This document shows, piece by piece, positions 3,837-38,000 of a stretch of 38,186 bases of DNA. Source of the DNA: Pseudomonadota bacterium (GTDB lineage: Bacteria > Oederibacteriota > Muellerivitia > Muellerivitales > Muellerivitaceae). The position numbers and the translations under genes are program-made. Numbering within the stretch: position 1 is the stretch's first letter; the number at the start of each line of letters is the position of its first letter. The stretch spans positions 1-38,186 of the forward strand of contig JAJPJW010000174.1 in the NCBI GenBank assembly GCA_021324075.1, read 5' to 3'. The notes beneath the pieces are model-generated. The model ran no database searches. It had not been told where the DNA came from and saw only the letters and a list, made by a program, of their open reading frames with translations.

Positions 3837-5444
3837 ATGCCCGACCTCATCGAAACCCCCAGCCAGACCTTCCTTTCCGCCGAGCCCAAAGTGACGCTGG
3901 TCAACAGCTTCGCCAAGCCCTTCGACAACGCGGTGGCCACGGCGCGCACCTGCTATTCCAGCAAGGGCATCGTCACGGCCGAACAGGTGGCGGGGGAAGG
4001 CCTGGACGAGACCAAGCAGGAAGAGCGCCGCCAAAGGCGCGACGAGCTGGCCCAGTCCATCTACAAGGCGGGGCACCATACCACCCTGCAGCACGCGCAT
4101 TTCCAGTTCGCCCTGGAGAATGTTTCGCGCCAGTTCATCTGGAGCTTCCTGCACAGCCACCCCTTCTATAATTCCGAACAGGTGTCCCAACGCTACGTGA
4201 CGGTCAACCCCACCCAGATGGCCATACCACCCCTGCCGGGCCCGGCGGCGGAGGTTTACCGCAAGGCCCTGGCCCTGCAGACCCAGGCCTATGAGGAACT
4301 CACCGAATCCCTGAAGCCCCTGGTGGAGAGGGAATACCTGCAGCGCTTCAAGAATTCCGACCCCAAGGGCAAGAAGGTGCTGGTGGCGGTGCAGAAGAAA
4401 TCCCAGGAAGTGGCCCGCTACGTTTTGCCTGTGGCCGCCTTCGCCTACCTCTACCACACGGTTTCGGGACTGACCCTGTTGCGCTACTGGCGGCTCTGCC
4501 AGACCTTCGACGCGCCCCTGGAACAGCGGCTGGTGGTGGGCAAGATGGTGGAGGCCGTCCTCCAGGAAGCCCCGGCTTACAAGGCCATCCTGGAACAGCC
4601 CATGGATTTTGCGACGACCCCCGAAGCGCAAATGTACGAAGGCTTCCATGCCAACGACTCAACCCACAAGGCCTTCCGGGAGGAGTTCGACGCTTCCTTG
4701 GGCGGGCGCACTTCCCGGCTGGTGGATTACTCCAAGGAAGGGGAGAAGATGCTGGCCGCCTCGGTGCGCGAGGTCTTCGGCCTGCCTTCCTCCGCCCTCT
4801 CGGATGACGCGGCCATCGAGCTGGCCCTGAACCCGTCCAAGAACAAATACCTGGGCGAGACCCTGAACGTGAGCACCCACAGCAAGGTTTCCCGGGCCCT
4901 CTTCCACCCCCACTACACTTTCCGCAAGAAGATCACCCATACGGGCGATTCGCAGGACCAGCGCCACCGCATGACGCCCGCCTCCCGGCCCATCCTGCAC
5001 GCCCTGACCCTGGACGAACCCGATTACCTGGTGCCCGTGCTCCTGAAGCAGGACAAGGCCCTGGAGCGGCGTTTCGCCGAGGTCATGGACCAAAGCTGGG
5101 AAGCCATCGGCCAACTGCGCAAGATGGGCGTCCCGGACGAATTCGCGGCCTACCTGCTGCCCAACGCGGTCTCGGTGCGCTTCACCGAGTCCGCGGACCT
5201 GCTGAACCTGCACCACAAGCACGCCATGCGGCTTTGCTACAACGCCCAGGAAGAGATCTGGCAGGCCTCGGTGGACGAGGCCCAACAGGTGAGGGAAGTG
5301 CACCCCCGCATCGGCAAATGGCTGCTGCCGCCTTGTACCCTCCGCGCTTACGCGGGTACGCTGCCCAAATGCCCCGAGGGCGAGCGCTTCTGCGGCGTCG
5401 TGGTCTGGAAGAAGGACCTGAACGAGTACCAAAGGGTGATTTAG
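3837..5444 (+). CDS. Double-length FAD-dependent thymidylate synthase (ThyX)-like protein
   Basis: Two ThyX-like halves: GHHTTLQHAHFQFALENVSRQFIW...EQVSQRYV in the first, DQRHRMTPASRP in the second; 535 aa versus about 220-250 aa for classical ThyX. Confidence 0.75.
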   Translation: MPDLIETPSQTFLSAEPKVTLVNSFAKPFDNAVATARTCYSSKGIVTAEQVAGEGLDETKQEERRQRRDELAQSIYKAGHHTTLQHAHFQFALENVSRQFIWSFLHSHPFYNSEQVSQRYVTVNPTQMAIPPLPGPAAEVYRKALALQTQAYEELTESLKPLVEREYLQRFKNSDPKGKKVLVAVQKKSQEVARYVLPVAAFAYLYHTVSGLTLLRYWRLCQTFDAPLEQRLVVGKMVEAVLQEAPAYKAILEQPMDFATTPEAQMYEGFHANDSTHKAFREEFDASLGGRTSRLVDYSKEGEKMLAASVREVFGLPSSALSDDAAIELALNPSKNKYLGETLNVSTHSKVSRALFHPHYTFRKKITHTGDSQDQRHRMTPASRPILHALTLDEPDYLVPVLLKQDKALERRFAEVMDQSWEAIGQLRKMGVPDEFAAYLLPNAVSVRFTESADLLNLHHKHAMRLCYNAQEEIWQASVDEAQQVREVHPRIGKWLLPPCTLRAYAGTLPKCPEGERFCGVVVWKKDLNEYQRVI

Positions 5445-5447
5445 AAA

Positions 5448-5478
5448 CAGTTCACAGCCGACAGTTCACAGTCGGCAG
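5448..5478 (+). repeat. Heptanucleotide (YYBRCRG) array directly after stop codon
   Basis: tag aaa CAG TTCACAG CCGACAG TTCACAG TCGGCAG. Confidence 0.85.
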
Positions 5479-6011: not shown

Positions 6012-6098
6012 GCCACAGATGCACACAGATTCACACGGATGAAGATTTAAATCCTAAAGATTTTTTCCCATCCGTGTTTATCTGTGTGCATCTGTGGC
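6012..6098. repeat. Long inverted-repeat (MITE/REP-like) element, copy 1
   Basis: 30-nt arms GCCACAGATGCACACAGATTCACACGGATG / CATCCGTGTTTATCTGTGTGCATCTGTGGC (2 mismatches), 27-nt loop. Confidence 0.92.
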
Positions 6099-9267: not shown

Positions 9268-10080
9268 ATGAAAAAGGCTTTTTACTTCGCGGCTTTGATC
9301 CTGCTCAGCGGCTCTTTGTTTTGGGCCGGTTGTTCCAGCAACAGTTACAACAACCCCAGTTCCCCCTACGGCAACCCCACCAATACCTATACTCCCGTTG
9401 TTACCAGCACCCCCACCGGTACCCCCACGGTGACCTTGACCCGGACTCCCACCGGGACTCCCACACTGACCGCCACCTCCACTTCCACCGGGACGCCCAC
9501 GAACACGGCCACCGTTACCCCCACGGCCACCATTACCAACACCGCCACTAATACCGCCACGAGGACCAATACGGGAACTCCCACTGATACGGCCACCACG
9601 ACCCCCACCGCCACGGTCACCGACACGCCCACGGTGACGGATACGGCCACCATTACGGACACGCCGACCGACACGGCGACGGCCACGATCACGAGTACGC
9701 CTACCGCCACCCCCATCGTCATCACCATCAACATCCAAACCTCGCCGTCGCTGGGCGGGACTTACGCCAGCTATTACTTTTTCTCTTCGGGCGGGAGCAA
9801 CAACTCTTCCAACGGCCTTTTGACCATGACGGTCCACCAGAATACCGTCGCCAACATGACGGGAGGCGGCTCCATCCACCCCCTTTATGCCAACGTCAAC
9901 ACCTCGACCACTTGTGTCACGGGGTTTTCGGGGGAAACCAGCGCCAGCATGCCCCTGACCTTTACGACCTTGGGAACCTATTACATCCACTGCGGATTCC
10001 ACGCCACGGGCTGCACGACAACCTCCTGCAGTTCCACTAGTTGTGCCGGCTTGTCGGCCGACATTACCGTGATTCCTTAA
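9268..10080 (+). CDS. Lipoprotein with ~100-aa Thr/Pro repeat linker and cupredoxin-like C-terminal domain
   Basis: Lipobox LFWAGC; TPTGTPT-type repeats; C-terminal domain with IHPLYANV and [16 protein letters not shown] (Cys-x2-His as in type-1 copper sites). ATG at 9268 fits the signal peptide. Confidence 0.75.
9394..9720 (+). repeat. Degenerate tandem ACN-CCN-ACN repeat encoding Thr/Pro/Ala/Asn linker
   Basis: Continuous (A/G)C(C/T)-CCC-AC(C/T/G)-like codon periodicity. Confidence 0.8.
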
Positions 10081-11522: not shown

Positions 11523-14378
11523 ATGACACGCCGTTTATTCGCCGCCCTATCGGCCCTGGCCATGCCTTTGGTTTTGTTGGGCTTCGGTCCCCAGGCCCAT
11601 TCCCATCCGCCCGGTTCATCCCAAAGCCGGCTTAATCTCGAATCCAACTTCGGGAAATTTCCCCTGGCTTTTGAACCCAACCGGGGCCAGGAGGCCTCAC
11701 CGGTCAAGTTCCTTTGCCGGGGCGGCGGTTACAGCCTTTTTGTGACGGGGGACGAAGCCGTTTTTCTCCTTAAAAAACCGGCTCCGAAATTTCCCATCCA
11801 CCCGGACAAGACTTTTTCAAGGCCCAAGCCCCAAGCCCCCGATATCCTCCGCCTCAAGCTGGCCCAAGCCAATCCGGATGCACTTTTCGAGGGGGCCCAG
11901 GCCCTTCCGGGCATCAGCAACTATTTCATCGGGCCCGATCCCGCCCATTGGGTCACGCGGGTGCCCCAATATTCCCGGGTGGTGCTCCATGGGGTCTATC
12001 CGGGCGTGGATGTCGCCTATTACGGCAACCAGGGCAGGCTGGAGTACGACTTTCAGGTGAACCCGGGCGCGGACCCCAGGAGCATCCATATGCACATCGA
12101 AGGGGCGGACAGCGTCCAAACCGACGGGCAGGGGAACCTTCAATTGACCGTCAAGGGCCGGAAGGTCCTATTTGAGGCGCCCCAGGTCTACCAGGAGGAT
12201 GGGACGGGACGGCGGCCGGTCTCCGGAAGATACTCCGCCGGGGGCAACAACGACGTTTCCTTCGACGTGAAAGATTACGACCCCAGCCGGAAACTCGTCA
12301 TCGACCCCGTCCTGGACTATGGCACTTACCTAGGAGGAACGGGCGGCGACCGGGGAACCGGCATCGCAGTCGATGGGTTGGGCAACACCTACATCACGGG
12401 ACTTACTTCCGGCAGTTTCCCCATCACGCCGGGGGCCATTCAAAGCGTCTTTGGGTCCAAGGTTTATACCGAAATGAACGACGTTTTCGTGTCCAAATTT
12501 GACCCGACCGGGTCCACGCTCCTTTACTCGACTTACTTGGGGGGGACCCAGAATGACACCGGTGAAGCCATCGCCGTCGATGGGAACGGAGACGCCTATG
12601 TGACGGGCCAGGCGGGGGCGGGGTTCCCCACGACACCAGGCGCCTATCAAACCGGTTTTGGCGGTGGATTCGATGCCTATTTTGGGGATGCTTTTTTATC
12701 CAAACTCAACGCGGATGGGACAGCCCTTCTTTATTCAACTTTTTTGGGCGGCCCGAACAGTGATGCCGGAACCGGAATCGCCCTGGACAACTCGGGAAAC
12801 GCCTATTTGACGGGTTGGGCCTCCTCCACCAACTTTCCCTCGACGCCTTCCTCCTTCATGCCCGTTTACGGATCCGGCGATAATGCGGATATTTTCGTGG
12901 CCAAGGTCAATCCCGCAGGCGGCGGTTCCTCGGACCTGGTCTATTCCACCTTCCTTGGGCAGGACGGGGTCGATGGCGGCCCTTTGAACATCGCGGTGGA
13001 CGGCAGCGGCGACGCCTATGTGGTGGGCGCCACCAACGGCAGCCATTTCACGACCACCGCGGGCGCTTTTGAGGCTTCCTTTGTCAACGGCGGGTCCGGC
13101 ATTCCGGATAATTTTTTGTTGAAGCTCAACCCCTCCGGATCGGGCCTGGTTTTTTCCACTTACGTAGGGCCGAGCGGTTTGTACGGCGGCTACGGCATCG
13201 CCTTCGACAGCGGCCAGGATATTTATATTACGGCCACTTCCCAGTCTGTCAGTTACCCCACCAGCCCAGGGGCTTACAGCCCCACTTACTTGGGGGGGTT
13301 GAACGGTGTGGTGGCTGAATTGAACCCGACAGGCTCAGCCCTTCTTTATTCCACTTTTTTGGAGCAGGCCTATAGCAGCACCATTTCTTGGGCGGCTTAT
13401 CCGACGGGCATCGAGGTGGACGACTGTGGGAACATCCATGTCACCGGGGCCACTTCCTACCCCTCTTTTCCTCTCACATCCGGTGCATGGGATAACAGCT
13501 TTAGCGCCAGCGGTTTCGCGGGTTTTTTCCTGGTTTTGAACCCCGCCCAGACGGGAAGCGCCCAACTCGTCTTTTCCACCTTTATGGGGAGCAGCAGCAG
13601 CACCTTCCCTTACTCCATGGCGAAGGATCCTTCGGGGAATCTTTATGTGGCCGGGGAAACCGGAAGCGGTTTTCCCTCGACCGGGGGTTCCTACCAGGCG
13701 GCCTATGGGGGTCCGTCCTGTTGCGGCGACGGGGATGCCTTTGTCGCCAAGATCGACGTTTCCTCACTTTGCGTTTCCGGCACGGCCACCCCTACGCCGA
13801 CGAACAGCCCGACCTCAACCTCCACCCTGACACCCGGTTCCACCGCCACTCCTTCCAGTACCCCAACCGTGTCGGCCACCGCGACCCCCACCAACAGCCT
13901 GACCTATACGTCCACCGCAACGCCCAGTTCCACCCCGACCCTTTCGCCAACCGCCCCGCCCACGGACACGGCCACCCCGACGCCCAGCCTCACACCGTCG
14001 TCCACTCCCACGGTGACCACGACCTTTACCCCCACCGACAGTCCCACCCCGAAAGGGTTCCATCCTCCCACCGCTACGCCGACGCCCGCGCCCATCGGGA
14101 TCGGATGGCCCTATCCCAATCCGGACTGGGGTGAAGGGCCGGTGAACATCCCCATCCAGGCCGCCGCGGGTTGTTCGGTCGAATGCAAGGTCTATACGAC
14201 GGCTTTCCGCAAGATCCGGGACTTTACCCGTCCGATGACCGCCGACGCCTACCATCTCACTTGGGACTTGGACGACAACTGGCAGGCGCCGGTGGCCAAC
14301 GGCCTTTATTACATGGAAGTGGAGGTGACGGGCCCCGTCCAAATGTCCAAGCTTTTCAAGGTCCTGGTGGCCCGGTAA
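11523..14378 (+). CDS. Secreted SBBP (seven-bladed beta-propeller) repeat protein with Thr/Pro linker and C-terminal putative sorting domain
   Basis: Signal peptide; repeated units such as LLYSTYLGGTQNDTGEAIAVDGNGDAYVTGQA; linker TPTPTNSPTSTSTLTPGST...; C-terminal WPYPNP...KVYTTAFRKIRDF...NGLYYMEVEV...KVLVAR. Confidence 0.85.
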   Translation: MTRRLFAALSALAMPLVLLGFGPQAHSHPPGSSQSRLNLESNFGKFPLAFEPNRGQEASPVKFLCRGGGYSLFVTGDEAVFLLKKPAPKFPIHPDKTFSRPKPQAPDILRLKLAQANPDALFEGAQALPGISNYFIGPDPAHWVTRVPQYSRVVLHGVYPGVDVAYYGNQGRLEYDFQVNPGADPRSIHMHIEGADSVQTDGQGNLQLTVKGRKVLFEAPQVYQEDGTGRRPVSGRYSAGGNNDVSFDVKDYDPSRKLVIDPVLDYGTYLGGTGGDRGTGIAVDGLGNTYITGLTSGSFPITPGAIQSVFGSKVYTEMNDVFVSKFDPTGSTLLYSTYLGGTQNDTGEAIAVDGNGDAYVTGQAGAGFPTTPGAYQTGFGGGFDAYFGDAFLSKLNADGTALLYSTFLGGPNSDAGTGIALDNSGNAYLTGWASSTNFPSTPSSFMPVYGSGDNADIFVAKVNPAGGGSSDLVYSTFLGQDGVDGGPLNIAVDGSGDAYVVGATNGSHFTTTAGAFEASFVNGGSGIPDNFLLKLNPSGSGLVFSTYVGPSGLYGGYGIAFDSGQDIYITATSQSVSYPTSPGAYSPTYLGGLNGVVAELNPTGSALLYSTFLEQAYSSTISWAAYPTGIEVDDCGNIHVTGATSYPSFPLTSGAWDNSFSASGFAGFFLVLNPAQTGSAQLVFSTFMGSSSSTFPYSMAKDPSGNLYVAGETGSGFPSTGGSYQAAYGGPSCCGDGDAFVAKIDVSSLCVSGTATPTPTNSPTSTSTLTPGSTATPSSTPTVSATATPTNSLTYTSTATPSSTPTLSPTAPPTDTATPTPSLTPSSTPTVTTTFTPTDSPTPKGFHPPTATPTPAPIGIGWPYPNPDWGEGPVNIPIQAAAGCSVECKVYTTAFRKIRDFTRPMTADAYHLTWDLDDNWQAPVANGLYYMEVEVTGPVQMSKLFKVLVAR

Positions 14379-19152: not shown

Positions 19153-19163
19153 GAAGTTGGCGG

Positions 19164-19247
19164 CTCACAGTTCGCAGTTGGCAGCAAAGGCTTTTGTCCC
19201 CTCAGTTTTAACTTTGCTGTGAACTGCCGACTGCCAACCGTGAACTG
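19164..19247. repeat. Inverted pair of heptanucleotide (YYBRCRG) arrays
   Basis: Plus strand 19164-19184 CTCACAG TTCGCAG TTGGCAG then CAAAGG; minus strand 19247-19212 CAG TTCACGG TTGGCAG TCGGCAG TTCACAG CAAAG. Confidence 0.85.
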
Positions 19248-19250
19248 TCT

Positions 19251-19790
19251 TTAGCCGTGCTTGAAATGCGAATAGGTTTGGAGGAGCGCGCTCAAGGAAG
19301 ACAGGACGAGGATGAGCAGCACCAGCTGCCGCAGGTGGGACGGGACGACGGAATAAATCCCCAACGCCAGGGCCACGACGGCCCAGGAAAAACCGATCCA
19401 GATCAGTTCCTTCAGTCCGGCGCGGCGGTTATGGTGCTGTTTTATTTTGAGGGCGAATTGCTCGGGCGTGAAACGCTCCTGGGTGGTCCGGTTGTCCGCC
19501 TGCCCCCCGAGGGTCCGCAGGAGGATATCCACCAGGAAAACCTGGAGCTCCGCGGCGGCCGCGGGGGCGTCGCGGGAAACAAGGGCCGAGTAAACTTCCT
19601 TGTCCGGGTCGTAGGAAAGCAGGCATTCGATTTCGGGCGGGCCCGGTTCGGAAAAACGGATGTTTTCCCATTCCCGGTCCTGGCCCTTCAGGTGGACCTC
19701 CACCGGGATGCCCCGGCGGTGCAGCTCCTCCAACAGCTCAAAGGCCGAGGGCTGAAGCTTCTTCTCAGGGGTCAGGATATATTCGGCCAT
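19251..19790 (-). CDS. Hypothetical protein with two C-terminal TM helices
   Basis: ORF MAEYILTPEKKLQPSAFELLEELHRRG...; hydrophobic IWIGFSWAVVALALGIYSVV and LVLLILVLSSLSALLQ. Confidence 0.6.
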   Translation of the reverse strand: MAEYILTPEKKLQPSAFELLEELHRRGIPVEVHLKGQDREWENIRFSEPGPPEIECLLSYDPDKEVYSALVSRDAPAAAAELQVFLVDILLRTLGGQADNRTTQERFTPEQFALKIKQHHNRRAGLKELIWIGFSWAVVALALGIYSVVPSHLRQLVLLILVLSSLSALLQTYSHFKHG

Positions 19791-32065: not shown

Positions 32066-33349
32066 GTGAGCCCCCGCCGCTTCCGTCCCCCGGCCCTTTA
32101 CATGAAGGCGCCCTTCCTCCAAAACGTCCTGGACGGCATGGCCGAGTCGGTGAAGATCATCGACCGCAGCTACCGCCTGGTTTACGCCAATTCCACCTCG
32201 CGCAAGAACCTGGGGAAGGACCTCAACGAACTGCGCGGCCGCTCCTGCCACGAGATGTTCTACGGCTTCAAGGAAAAATGCTTCTTCTGCAACATGGGCA
32301 AGGTCTTCGAACAGGGCCAGTCCGCCACCACCTACTGCACCCTGGCGGTAAAGGGCGCCAACCGCGAATTCGAGGTTTCAGTCTTCCCCCTGAAGGGCGC
32401 CAACCAGCAGGTGGACTACGCGGTGGAAGTGGTGCGGGACATCACGCCCCTGTCCAAGGGCGGGGCCCTTCCCCAGAACGCCGGCAAGATCGCCAGCCGG
32501 GACAAGAGTTTCGCGCTGGCCTTCGACAACATGGCCCAATGGGCCGAGGACGAGTGGCCGGTGCTTTTGCAGGGCGAGAAGGGCACGGGCAAGAAGTCCT
32601 TCGCCCAGGCCCTGCACCAGCGCAGCCGCCGCGCGGGCGGCCCCTTCCGCATCTTCCACTGCATGGACAACGCCGGGGAGGAAGGCTGCGACGGCCTTTT
32701 CGTTCCGGGCGGCGCCTGGGAAAAGGCCCGGGGCGGGACCCTTTACCTGGACGGCATCTGCCGCCTGGGAGACGGCACCCAGAAGAAGCTGGCGGAAATC
32801 CTCTCCGCGCCCGCCGATGACAACAACCCCCGCGTGGTGGCAGCCACTTCATTGGATATCCTCGCCCTCGTGCAGGAGGAAACCATCCGGCTGGACTTCT
32901 ACAACCGCTTCGCTTCCCGCGTCCTGCGCCTCCCGGCCTTGAGGGACCGCAAGCAGGACCTCCCTTTCCTCGCCCAGCATTTCATTGAGACCTACCGGGT
33001 CCTGACCGGATCGCCGGCGGAGAAACTGGGGCCCGAGGCCATGGTGCAGCTCATGACCTACGCCTGGCCGGGCAATATCCGGGAACTGGAAACCCAAATC
33101 GAACGGGCCTGCCTTTTGGCCACCGGCCCCCAGGTCGGGAAGCTGGACCTGCCTATCGAGGTGCCCAAGAAGGAAAAGCTCGACGACCTTTTGGACACCA
33201 CGGAAAAGGCCTATTTGGTCGACGTCCTTTCCAAGACCCACGGCAACCCGGGGGAAACGGCCCAGTTGTCGGGGCTCAACCTCAAGACCCTCCAACGCAA
33301 GATGAAGAAGCACGGCCTCAGGGCCGAAGATTTCCGGAACCTGCCTTAA
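32066..33349 (+). CDS. PAS plus degenerate sigma54-type AAA+ plus Fis-type HTH regulator
   Basis: PAS-like LDGMAESVKIIDRSYRLVYANSTSRKNLG; CH..CFFC cluster; Walker A GEKGTGKKS; Walker B GGTLYLDGI; R-finger region RLDFYNRF; WPGNIRELE; C-terminal HTH ETAQLSGLNLKTLQRKMKKHGL. GTG start; ATG at 32102 alternative. Confidence 0.85.
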   Translation: MSPRRFRPPALYMKAPFLQNVLDGMAESVKIIDRSYRLVYANSTSRKNLGKDLNELRGRSCHEMFYGFKEKCFFCNMGKVFEQGQSATTYCTLAVKGANREFEVSVFPLKGANQQVDYAVEVVRDITPLSKGGALPQNAGKIASRDKSFALAFDNMAQWAEDEWPVLLQGEKGTGKKSFAQALHQRSRRAGGPFRIFHCMDNAGEEGCDGLFVPGGAWEKARGGTLYLDGICRLGDGTQKKLAEILSAPADDNNPRVVAATSLDILALVQEETIRLDFYNRFASRVLRLPALRDRKQDLPFLAQHFIETYRVLTGSPAEKLGPEAMVQLMTYAWPGNIRELETQIERACLLATGPQVGKLDLPIEVPKKEKLDDLLDTTEKAYLVDVLSKTHGNPGETAQLSGLNLKTLQRKMKKHGLRAEDFRNLP

Positions 33350-33350
33350 G

Positions 33351-33387
33351 CAGTCGGCGGTCGGCAGCTTACAGTCGACAGCAAAAT
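33351..33387 (+). repeat. Heptanucleotide (YYBRCRG) array directly after stop codon
   Basis: taa g CAG TCGGCGG TCGGCAG CTTACAG TCGACAG CAAAAT. Confidence 0.8.
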
Positions 33388-33420: not shown

Positions 33421-33518
33421 CCCCCTCACCCTAACCCTCTCCCTTCAGGGAGAGGGAAGTGTCGAAAAGCCATTTGTCCAGTCTCCCTCGCCCTTGAGGG
33501 AGAGGGCGGGGTGAGGGG
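33421..33518. repeat. Palindromic intergenic element with two hairpins and complementary outer arms
   Basis: CCCCTCACCCtaaCCCTCTCCCttcaGGGAGAGGG ... CCCTCgCCCTTGAGGGAGAGGGCGGGGTGAGGGG. Confidence 0.8.
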
Positions 33519-33667
33519 TCATAAAAAATGATTTTCTTTCCAAATTCGTCCATGACAGAACCTCTGTCCGTTGTTCCTTGACGCTCCCCCGGCACCGTTT
33601 TAAACTGCCCCCTCATTCAATCCGGCGGGTGGAATTTCCCCAACCCCCATTCCAAAAGGAGTTTTCC

Positions 33668-35027: not shown

Positions 35028-38000
35028 ATGCCCGATCCAAAGGCCAAATCCCAGGATACGCCTTCCCGGCGTAAGCTCCTCTTTTTGGGGGGCGTTTTCC
35101 TCGCCGTTTTTTTCCTGCCCCTGACCGGTTGGGTCTTAAACCGTATCTTCCAGCCCCTGCCTTTCGCCGATGAGGACGCCGGGGAACCCCAAGCCTGGCT
35201 GAAAAGGGAACAGTGGCTGGCCCAAGGACGCAAGAGCCCCGACGGTCTTCCCGCGGCCGCCCATTGGCTTGCCGCCCTCCAGCAGGCCCAAAAGCTTCCC
35301 CTCGTCCGGGGAAGTTCCCTCCGCCGGCCTTCGGGCGCCCGGCCCCTGGCGGGGGCGCCTTCCGCCCCCCCGCCCCTCGGCGGCTGCGATTGGACCGAGC
35401 AGGGGCCTTCGCCCCTGGTGGACGCCACCTACGGCAAGGTCTCGGGGCGCGTGACCAATTTGACCCTGGACCTCACCAGCGACCCCACGGGCAACACCCT
35501 CTACCTGGCCGCGGCCTACGGCGGCGTCTGGAAGACCACCAACGGCCTTTCGTCCTCCCCCAGCTTCACGCCCATCAGCGACATCCACCAGAGCCTGGCC
35601 ATGGGGGCCGTCGGCGTGGACCCCAGCGTGTCACCCCCGATCCTTTACGTCGGCACGGGCGAGATCAACCAGGCGGCGGATTCCTATTACGGTACGGGCA
35701 TTATGAAATCCGTGGACGGCGGCGGCACCTGGACCCTCACCACCACGGCCAACTCCGGGGCCATCTCCCTCTTGGGGCTGGGCTTCTCCAAGATATTGGT
35801 GGACCCCGCCAACCCGGCCACGGTCCTGGCCGGCGCGGCCTTCTCCATCTGCTGTGACCCGGGCATCAACCAGACCAATATGGGGCTTTACATCTCCACC
35901 GACGCAGGCAACAGCTGGACCCACCAGGCCACCATCGGCAGCCATTCCTGCACCGACCTGGTCTACGACCCTTCCAACCAGACCTATTACGCGGGCATCC
36001 GGGGCGTGGGCATCTACAAGTCGGTGGACCACGGCACCACCTGGACGCTCTGTGCCTCGCCCTTCGTGGGAGGCACCCCGCCCACCTTGTCCAACTTCGG
36101 CCGGGTTTCCTTGGCCGTTCGGGGGGGCAAGTTGTGGGCTCTTTTTACGGAAAGCATTACCTTTGATCTTTCCACACCCACTTCGGGACAAGACACGGGC
36201 CTGGCCGAGTCGGATGACAACGGCGCCACCTGGAACCCGGTGGGGGTGCCCAACGTCCCCGGCGGCAGCCTGGTGAACGCGGGGTTTGTCGGAGGCCAAC
36301 CTCAAGGTCAATACGACCAATACCTGGCCGCGCCCCCCGGCTCCACGGCGCTTGTGGCCGGCGGTATCGACCTGTGGAAGGCCAATATCGTCAATGGCAC
36401 CTCCACTACCTGGACGAACCTCAGCAACGCCTACACGGGCAGCCCCAGCAGCCACCCCGACCAGCACGCCTTCGCCGCGGTCAACGCCAATACCTGGTAC
36501 ATGGGCAACGACGGCGGGGTCTGGTCCACCACCAACGCGGGCGGCAGCATCAACGACCTCAATACCGACCTGGGCACGATCCAATACGTGAGCGTGAGCC
36601 CCGACCCCGCTTCCGCCACGGCCTTCATCGGCGGCGCCCAGGACAACGGCACCTCCCGGACCGCCGGGGGGCTTACCTGGCACGAAGCCTTCGGCGGGGA
36701 CGGCGGCTACACGGACGTCAACCCTTCCACACTGGGCCAGTATTACGGCGAGCATTTCCGCGTAGGACTTTACCGCGTGGACAACTTCGGCTCGGCCTTC
36801 GTGACGGTGGTTGATGGTTCGACGATTACTGACTATTCGGCCTTTTATACTCCATATAAGGTCATCCCCGGAGCGGGTCCCACAGTCGTTTATGGAACCA
36901 CGCGCGTTTGGGAAGGGCCGGGTACGGCTTCTCTTGGTGCGGGATGGAACCCCATCAGCCCGTTCCTTATCGGCAACAATGAGGGTCAGTTTATTAACGG
37001 CCTCGATGTGGCGCCCAGCAATTCCAACTATATTTATGCGGCTTTCAGCGATCTGAATGCGGGGAATTACACCGTTTTTATGACGGCCAACGGGGGCGGC
37101 AGTTGGACCAATATCTCGGCCGGGCTTCCCGGTACCCGCCCGGTCAGGGGCATCTCGGTGGACCCCACGAACCCCCTCAAGGCCTACCTGGGGGTGCAGG
37201 GTTTCGCCCTGGCTAACGGGTCGGGACACGTCTTTGAGACGACCAATGGTGGGACTTCCTGGACCGACATCACCGGCTCCCTGCCCGACGCGCCGGTCAA
37301 CAGCGTCCTGGTGGACCCCCAGTTCCCGGGCGACCTTTACGTGGGGACGGACGTGGGGGTTTTCGTAACCCAGGACAACGGCACCACCTGGTCCCGGATG
37401 GGGAACCAGCTTCCCGATTCGGCGGTCTTCCAGCTCAAACTCTCGGTCACCTGTCCCCGCGTGCTCTCGGCTTCCACCTATGGACGGGGAGCCTGGACCA
37501 TCTGCCCCCTGGATAATCCCAACTGTCCCACCAACACCCCGACCGACACCCCCAGCCCCACCGCCAGCTTCACCCCCACCTCCACCCCGACCGCCACGGC
37601 CACCACCAGCTTCACCCCGACCCTCACGCCGAGCCTTACCCCAACCTTCACCACCACTTTGAGCCCCACCGCCACCCCCACCCAAACCACGACCGCCACT
37701 CCTACCCTGACCCCGAGCGTGACGCCGACGCCGACCATTCCCAACACCTTGGCGCCCGTCATTTGGCCCAATCCCCTGCAAGGGGGTATTACGGCACCCC
37801 AACTCCAGCTTTCCTTCGCCACGACCGTCCACTCGCTCCAAATCAAGGTTTTCACCACCTCCTTCCGGAAGGTGAAAGAGTGGGACAGCCAGGAAATTCC
37901 CGCGGGCGTCCGCACACTGCCCTGGGACGCCGTGGACCAGAACGGAACGTCGCTCGCCAACGGCCTCTACTATGTGGTGGTGCAGGCGGACACCAACCGT

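Follow-up and report, generated by a model that had tools for sequence, protein, structure and literature searches.

The window analyzed here, a stretch of 38,186 nucleotides that corresponds to contig C135 of a 3.57-Mb genome in 228 contigs, raises the question of why a short array of 7-nt units stands almost directly behind the stop codon of three of its genes. A sequence-only reading had described CAG plus four units fitting YYBRCRG, placed in gene orientation. All three arrays are present as claimed, at 5448-5478 (plus strand), 19217-19247 (minus strand) and 33351-33381 (plus strand), and they start 3, 3 and 1 nt after the stop codon, respectively. By pattern match, copy 1 reads CAG TTCACAG CCGACAG TTCACAG TCGGCAG. 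It follows the TAG stop of a ThyX-like gene and a 3-nt linker, AAA (together 5442-5447, plus strand), and takes up most of the 43-nt gap to the next gene, as had been noted. No inverted partner of copy 1 was found up to that gene, and it is classed as a single arm. Copy 3 (CAG TCGGCGG TCGGCAG CTTACAG TCGACAG) is also a single arm. It follows the TAA stop of an AAA+ regulator gene and a 1-nt linker (33347-33350, plus strand), and ends in the inner border CAAAA (33382-33386, plus strand).

Copy 2 (CAG TTCACGG TTGGCAG TCGGCAG TTCACAG, minus strand) is separated by a 3-nt linker from the TAA stop of a hypothetical gene at 19251-19790 (linker and stop at 19248-19253, minus strand). A fourth array, overlooked in the earlier reading, is located at 19154-19184 on the plus strand (AAG TTGGCGG CTCACAG TTCGCAG TTGGCAG, one mismatch to the pattern). 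The two arrays face each other from opposite strands and are therefore the arms of a single inverted-repeat element, with the fourth array on the left and copy 2 on the right of a 32-nt spacer (19185-19216). The spacer carries the inner borders CAAAG ... CTTTG. The CAAAR 3' border reported as common to copies 2 and 3 is indeed there, and can now be identified as the inner end of an arm. The complete element is a 94-bp inverted repeat (19154-19247) that takes up the greater part of the space between the hypothetical gene and its neighbor, which we take from its protein sequence to be queG-like.

The recurrent pattern can be written as CAG(YYSRCAG)4. Shuffles of the window gave no matches to the four-unit pattern, even with three mismatches allowed. 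The whole 3.57-Mb genome contained 19 perfect four-unit matches and 44 three-unit rows, versus 0 and 2 for the reversed pattern. A motif count no higher than in composition-matched shuffles had been named beforehand as one result that would overturn the claim; the count was far above both the shuffled and the reversed-pattern control. Further statistics were based on about 1.09 Mb of the window's genome (G000) and about 0.44 Mb of a genome from the same genus (G001), where most G001 stretches and some G000 ones were picked since they bear arrays. After overlapping stop-codon letters were trimmed, 44 of the 46 arrays in the 1.09 Mb of G000 had exactly four units, as did 46 of 53 in G001 and 7 of 8 in G003, a genome from another genus.

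The letters within units were far more variable than their number, with 69 distinct units among 360. By position, the 360 units read T/C, T/C, C/G, A/G, C (99%), A/G and G (100%), and adjacent units differed at position 3 beyond expectation (P = 0.001 in G000 and 0.0025 in G001). Arms have an outer border TAA[A/C]GGCAG and an inner border CAAARCC. We detected 35 convergent pairs with spacers that cluster near 20 and 33 nt, and about half of the elements were single arms by the detection used. That each copy is only a direct-repeat array is not supported, with convergent inverted pairs making up about half of the elements. Across the intergenic DNA of both sampled genomes, period 7 was by far the most enriched spacing, with 19 and 31 strong segments versus about zero in shuffled sequence. 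Periods 9 and 10 also appeared at a looser threshold.

We determined how the elements are placed relative to genes, using calls from a simple codon-usage script in which starts are approximate and stops less affected. By these calls, 71 of 72 elements are intergenic, and the exception sits after a stop codon that the caller missed. For 61 elements the gap has a stop codon on at least one side, and 46 of them come to within 5 nt of one. Elements placed uniformly in these gaps would be expected to do so in 11.1 cases, and did so in no more than 23 in any of 100,000 simulations; by this test, a shortage of room in tight gaps does not suffice to explain the anchoring. On the start side, the distance to the gene varied broadly, from 0 to 761 nt. 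Anchored ends (n = 51) were exactly 3 nt from the stop in 34 cases and 4 nt in 11. The stops were TAA in 37, TGA in 11 and TAG in 3, an enrichment of TAA relative to about 50% of gene calls. TAA alone was rejected as the target site because TGA and TAG stops are anchored too. Single arms run in gene orientation, and just three pairs and a few single arms among the 72 elements occur between divergent genes. The central claim of the sequence-only reading, that the arrays are anchored at stop codons in a fixed orientation, is borne out by these counts, since a lack of enrichment just past stops was the other result that would have overturned it. The observation is genuine and stronger than first reported.

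Paired elements fold into imperfect hairpins with a mismatch every 7 nt, and the mean fold z was -4.8 for 26 paired elements, with mononucleotide shuffles as the control. True partner arms pair at 19.5 of 28 positions versus 18.8 for partners swapped within the genome (p = 0.02). Compensatory pairing between partner arms is therefore only marginal, and there is no clear or strong covariation. Anti-pairing at position 3, hinted at by two elements, was not significant.

The inverted arms, their intergenic location and their rarity between divergent genes would also suit an element acting at the level of DNA or transcription, such as a terminator or cruciform that marks gene ends. We consider this very unlikely. 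The stems that were inspected lack a trailing U-run, and no T-run of the kind that follows a Rho-independent terminator was seen after the listed arms. Many elements lie inside tandem gene runs. One site (L086) has a terminator-like hairpin of its own, complete with T run and conserved in G001, directly behind the first arm, so that the arm itself does not serve as the terminator at this site.

Several known repeat classes share parts of this architecture. The STRR repeats of heterocystous cyanobacteria are exact 7-nt units in variable number that, like the arrays described here, are arranged in tandem between genes. To our knowledge, their description includes no fixed four-unit, stop-anchored layout. 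Going by this general definition, the present arrays depart from STRRs in having 69 distinct units among 360 and a unit number fixed at four. The TAACTGA heptamers of Beggiatoaceae, Cyanobacteria and Bacteroidetes are likewise intergenic and tandem, and their reverse complement, TCAGTTA, includes a CAGTT core (MacGregor 2015, PMC4679880). Unlike the CAG family, they are exact direct repeats of 2-6 or more units, mostly located just upstream of starts and almost never in inverted pairs; the arrays here are degenerate and stop-anchored.

The closest match in layout that we compared comprises the GGGAATC / GGGGA(C/T)T heptameric repeats in Xanthomonas and Nostoc (Rehm et al. 2015, PMC4692102). 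These share with the CAG family the 7-nt units, the four-unit mode, the convergent inverted pairs and a location near stops on the sense strand, mostly between aligned ORFs and with few between divergent ORFs. Stop anchoring had been called unusual in the earlier reading; it is sharper here, but heptad arrays that favor four units, pair convergently and lie near stops were already known in those genera (PMC4692102). The differences are that the Xanthomonas and Nostoc units are G-tract units, occur in arrays of 2-26 units and have stop distances available only as bins (0-50 bp and more), whereas the CAG family has no G-tracts, exactly four units in nearly all arrays and a 3-nt anchor. The four-unit preference in Xanthomonas and Nostoc was tied to G-quadruplex formation (PMC4692102). 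Among 70 arms of the CAG family, GGG occurs in three and at least four GG tracts in four. A G-quadruplex explanation is rejected for this family, and the four-unit rule therefore cannot rest on G-quadruplexes alone.

REP/BIME elements, such as those of E. coli, are also intergenic inverted repeats near stops that could fold in the 3' UTR. They have no heptad periodicity. By the REP definition (PMC3733652), a GTAG/CGTC tag is expected at one end; the outer border found here, TAA[A/C]GGCAG, has no such tag. Neither are the arrays closely similar repeated palindromes, considering that arm identities within a genome equal the column-shuffled expectation. There are therefore no recent copies among them, and they look like independent draws from one profile. 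The RAYT Y1 transposase (PF01797) had no hits in the array-rich genomes G000 and G003, and mobilization by a RAYT/REP system was rejected on this ground. Recent copy-paste spread is unlikely given both the independent-draw appearance of the copies and the absence of a REP-type transposase from these two genomes.

The exact pattern is frequent solely in the window's family (G000, G001 and G003), with few instances in G002 and G007. G005, G006 and G008 have none, and about 90 further genomes have next to none. A cross-phylum scan that required at least four perfect units returned, among the matches listed, CAG-heptads of 2-83 units in cyanobacteria, Planctomycetota, Bacteroidota and others, with weaker anchoring. 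Since unit number varies so widely elsewhere, strict adherence to four units characterizes this lineage. Other heptad families occur near gene ends as well. Arrays with AGTT and AATT cores are typically about 32 nt long, which amounts to five cores at 7-nt steps, and are often near stops. Arrays with AGTT, AATT or AAGTTCG cores were seen in G001 (L199 10467-10570, L202 11289, L206 3063 and others) and in G000 (L049 7249, L080 2152), in both cases often right after stops.

At orthologous sites, the layout is conserved and the letters are not. The ThyX site has a four-unit arm in G001 too, as does the AAA+ site, each with changed letters; arrays also persist with changed letters at the L085 and L086 sites. 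The AAA+ site has a single arm in the window and a full inverted pair in G001. Where G001 carries the right arm, the window has a palindromic repeat, CCCCTCACCCTAACCCTCTCCC ... GGGAGAGGGCGGGGTGAGGGG, at 33423-33520. At the L085 site, the orthologous arrays are offset by exactly one unit, with four units in both and 20 of 21 positions identical after the shift. The gap between the hypothetical and queG-like genes holds different inverted repeats with units of about 8 nt in G001, G004 and G007 (ACCGCGAAGGCGCG... and ACCACAGAGGCACAGAGA..., at L172 of G001, 2618-2747, and at L156 and L157). In G003 and G006 these genes overlap as ATGA, and there is no gap where G000 has its element. Other G001 sites carry a second heptad family (CAG GTGCTAG GCAGTAG GTTCTAG GGGCTAG), which is inverted too, or AATT-type heptads. 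Because many G001 stretches were chosen as array-bearing, co-occupancy outside the window is biased upward. The window's own three sites form the unbiased sample, of which two are co-occupied and the third is replaced by another inverted repeat. Unit letters of orthologous arms were only sometimes closer than those of random arms, so vertical descent with fast change is not always separable from independent gain.

These gains at gene junctions and replacements by other repeat families make a parasitic origin the main rival to a host function. The arrays would be remnants of an unknown heptad-adding process or mobile element, acquired where genes meet, tolerated nowhere else and without function for the host. 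Presence or absence at orthologous sites (including the ATGA overlaps), the occupation of one gap by different families in different species, and the spread of the unit type across phyla with very different array lengths are all in line with this. We nevertheless judge it somewhat unlikely, as there are no near-identical recent copies, array-rich G000 and G003 have no RAYT transposase, and uniform tolerance within gaps would not yield a sharp 3-nt position. Target-site duplication, which the earlier reading had offered as a speculation, was not found.

Another possibility is that the arrays bind a protein recognizing C(A/G)G cores at 7-nt spacing on RNA or DNA, with a TRAP-like logic in which four steps fit the size of the protein and inversion is incidental. 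The near-invariant C and G at positions 5 and 7, the existence of single arms, the fixed unit count and the weak covariation between partners are what such an array would be expected to have. Replacement by families with other cores at the same gene ends is something that one specific reader would not tolerate, and no candidate protein was identified. We regard this explanation as unlikely.

The structure, count, placement and orientation of the elements, and their persistence and replacement at orthologous sites, were observed directly. By analogy, a REP-like structural element of the 3' UTR is the most likely interpretation. More specifically, we tentatively propose, with confidence that approaches but does not reach an even chance, that each array forms an arm of a 3'-UTR element, which is added to gene ends and acts post-transcriptionally, with its layout under selection. 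One arm would consist of TAA[A/C]GG-CAG-(YYSRCAG)x4-CAAARCC with the stop codon of the gene at its outer edge, joined in about half of the elements by a second, inverted arm beyond a spacer close to 20 or 33 nt in length. When transcribed along with the gene before it, the pair would form, in the cell, a ladder-like imperfect hairpin, in which short CAGYY/RRCTG rungs alternate with mismatches every 7 nt, beginning 3 nt past the stop. The hairpin may then act at the end of the upstream coding sequence, where it could, for instance, affect ribosome release, 3'-end decay or the separation of neighboring cistrons. Selection would hold position, four steps and inverted orientation over the exact letters.

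Counting for the 3'-UTR element are the stop-side rather than start-side placement, the gene orientation of single arms and the scarcity between divergent genes. So do the convergent pairs with their two spacer classes, the fold z-scores and the fixed four units. Persistence with changed letters, the occupation of corresponding gene ends by other inverted repeats in G001, G004 and G007, and the other heptad families near stops with the same five-core, 7-nt layout also count in its favor. Counting against it are the single arms, which make up about half of the elements, the slight excess in partner pairing, and the reliance of the z-scores on mononucleotide shuffles. The closest functional model is the stop-proximal REPs of E. 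coli, which can downregulate translation when less than 16 nt from the stop, according to an account citing Liang et al. 2015 (PMC12306157).

Compared with the G-quadruplex-linked heptads, the G-tract-free family keeps more strictly to four units, is paired convergently in the same way and is anchored more sharply at stops. The four-unit rule therefore needs a cause other than G-quadruplexes. Stop-anchored arms of four heptad steps could represent a general class of bacterial gene-end element, although we find this rather doubtful. The families (CAG, AGTT, AATT and CTAG, and GGGAATC in Xanthomonas) would then share an architecture and interchange at the same gene ends, with the four steps held by selection or a counting mechanism, and the layout rather than the sequence conserved. 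If so, common and ignored intergenic repeats would be a class of 3'-UTR element that acts at translation termination or mRNA ends, and most of that class would be invisible to sequence-based searches.

Two further features of the window were observed. An intergenic inverted repeat with period-10 tandem arms, CACAGATGCA ... CATCTGTGTG, is present at 6014-6096. Three predicted proteins contain Thr/Pro-rich (TPTxTPT) low-complexity regions, encoded at 9439-9700, 13700-14000 and 37527-37735.
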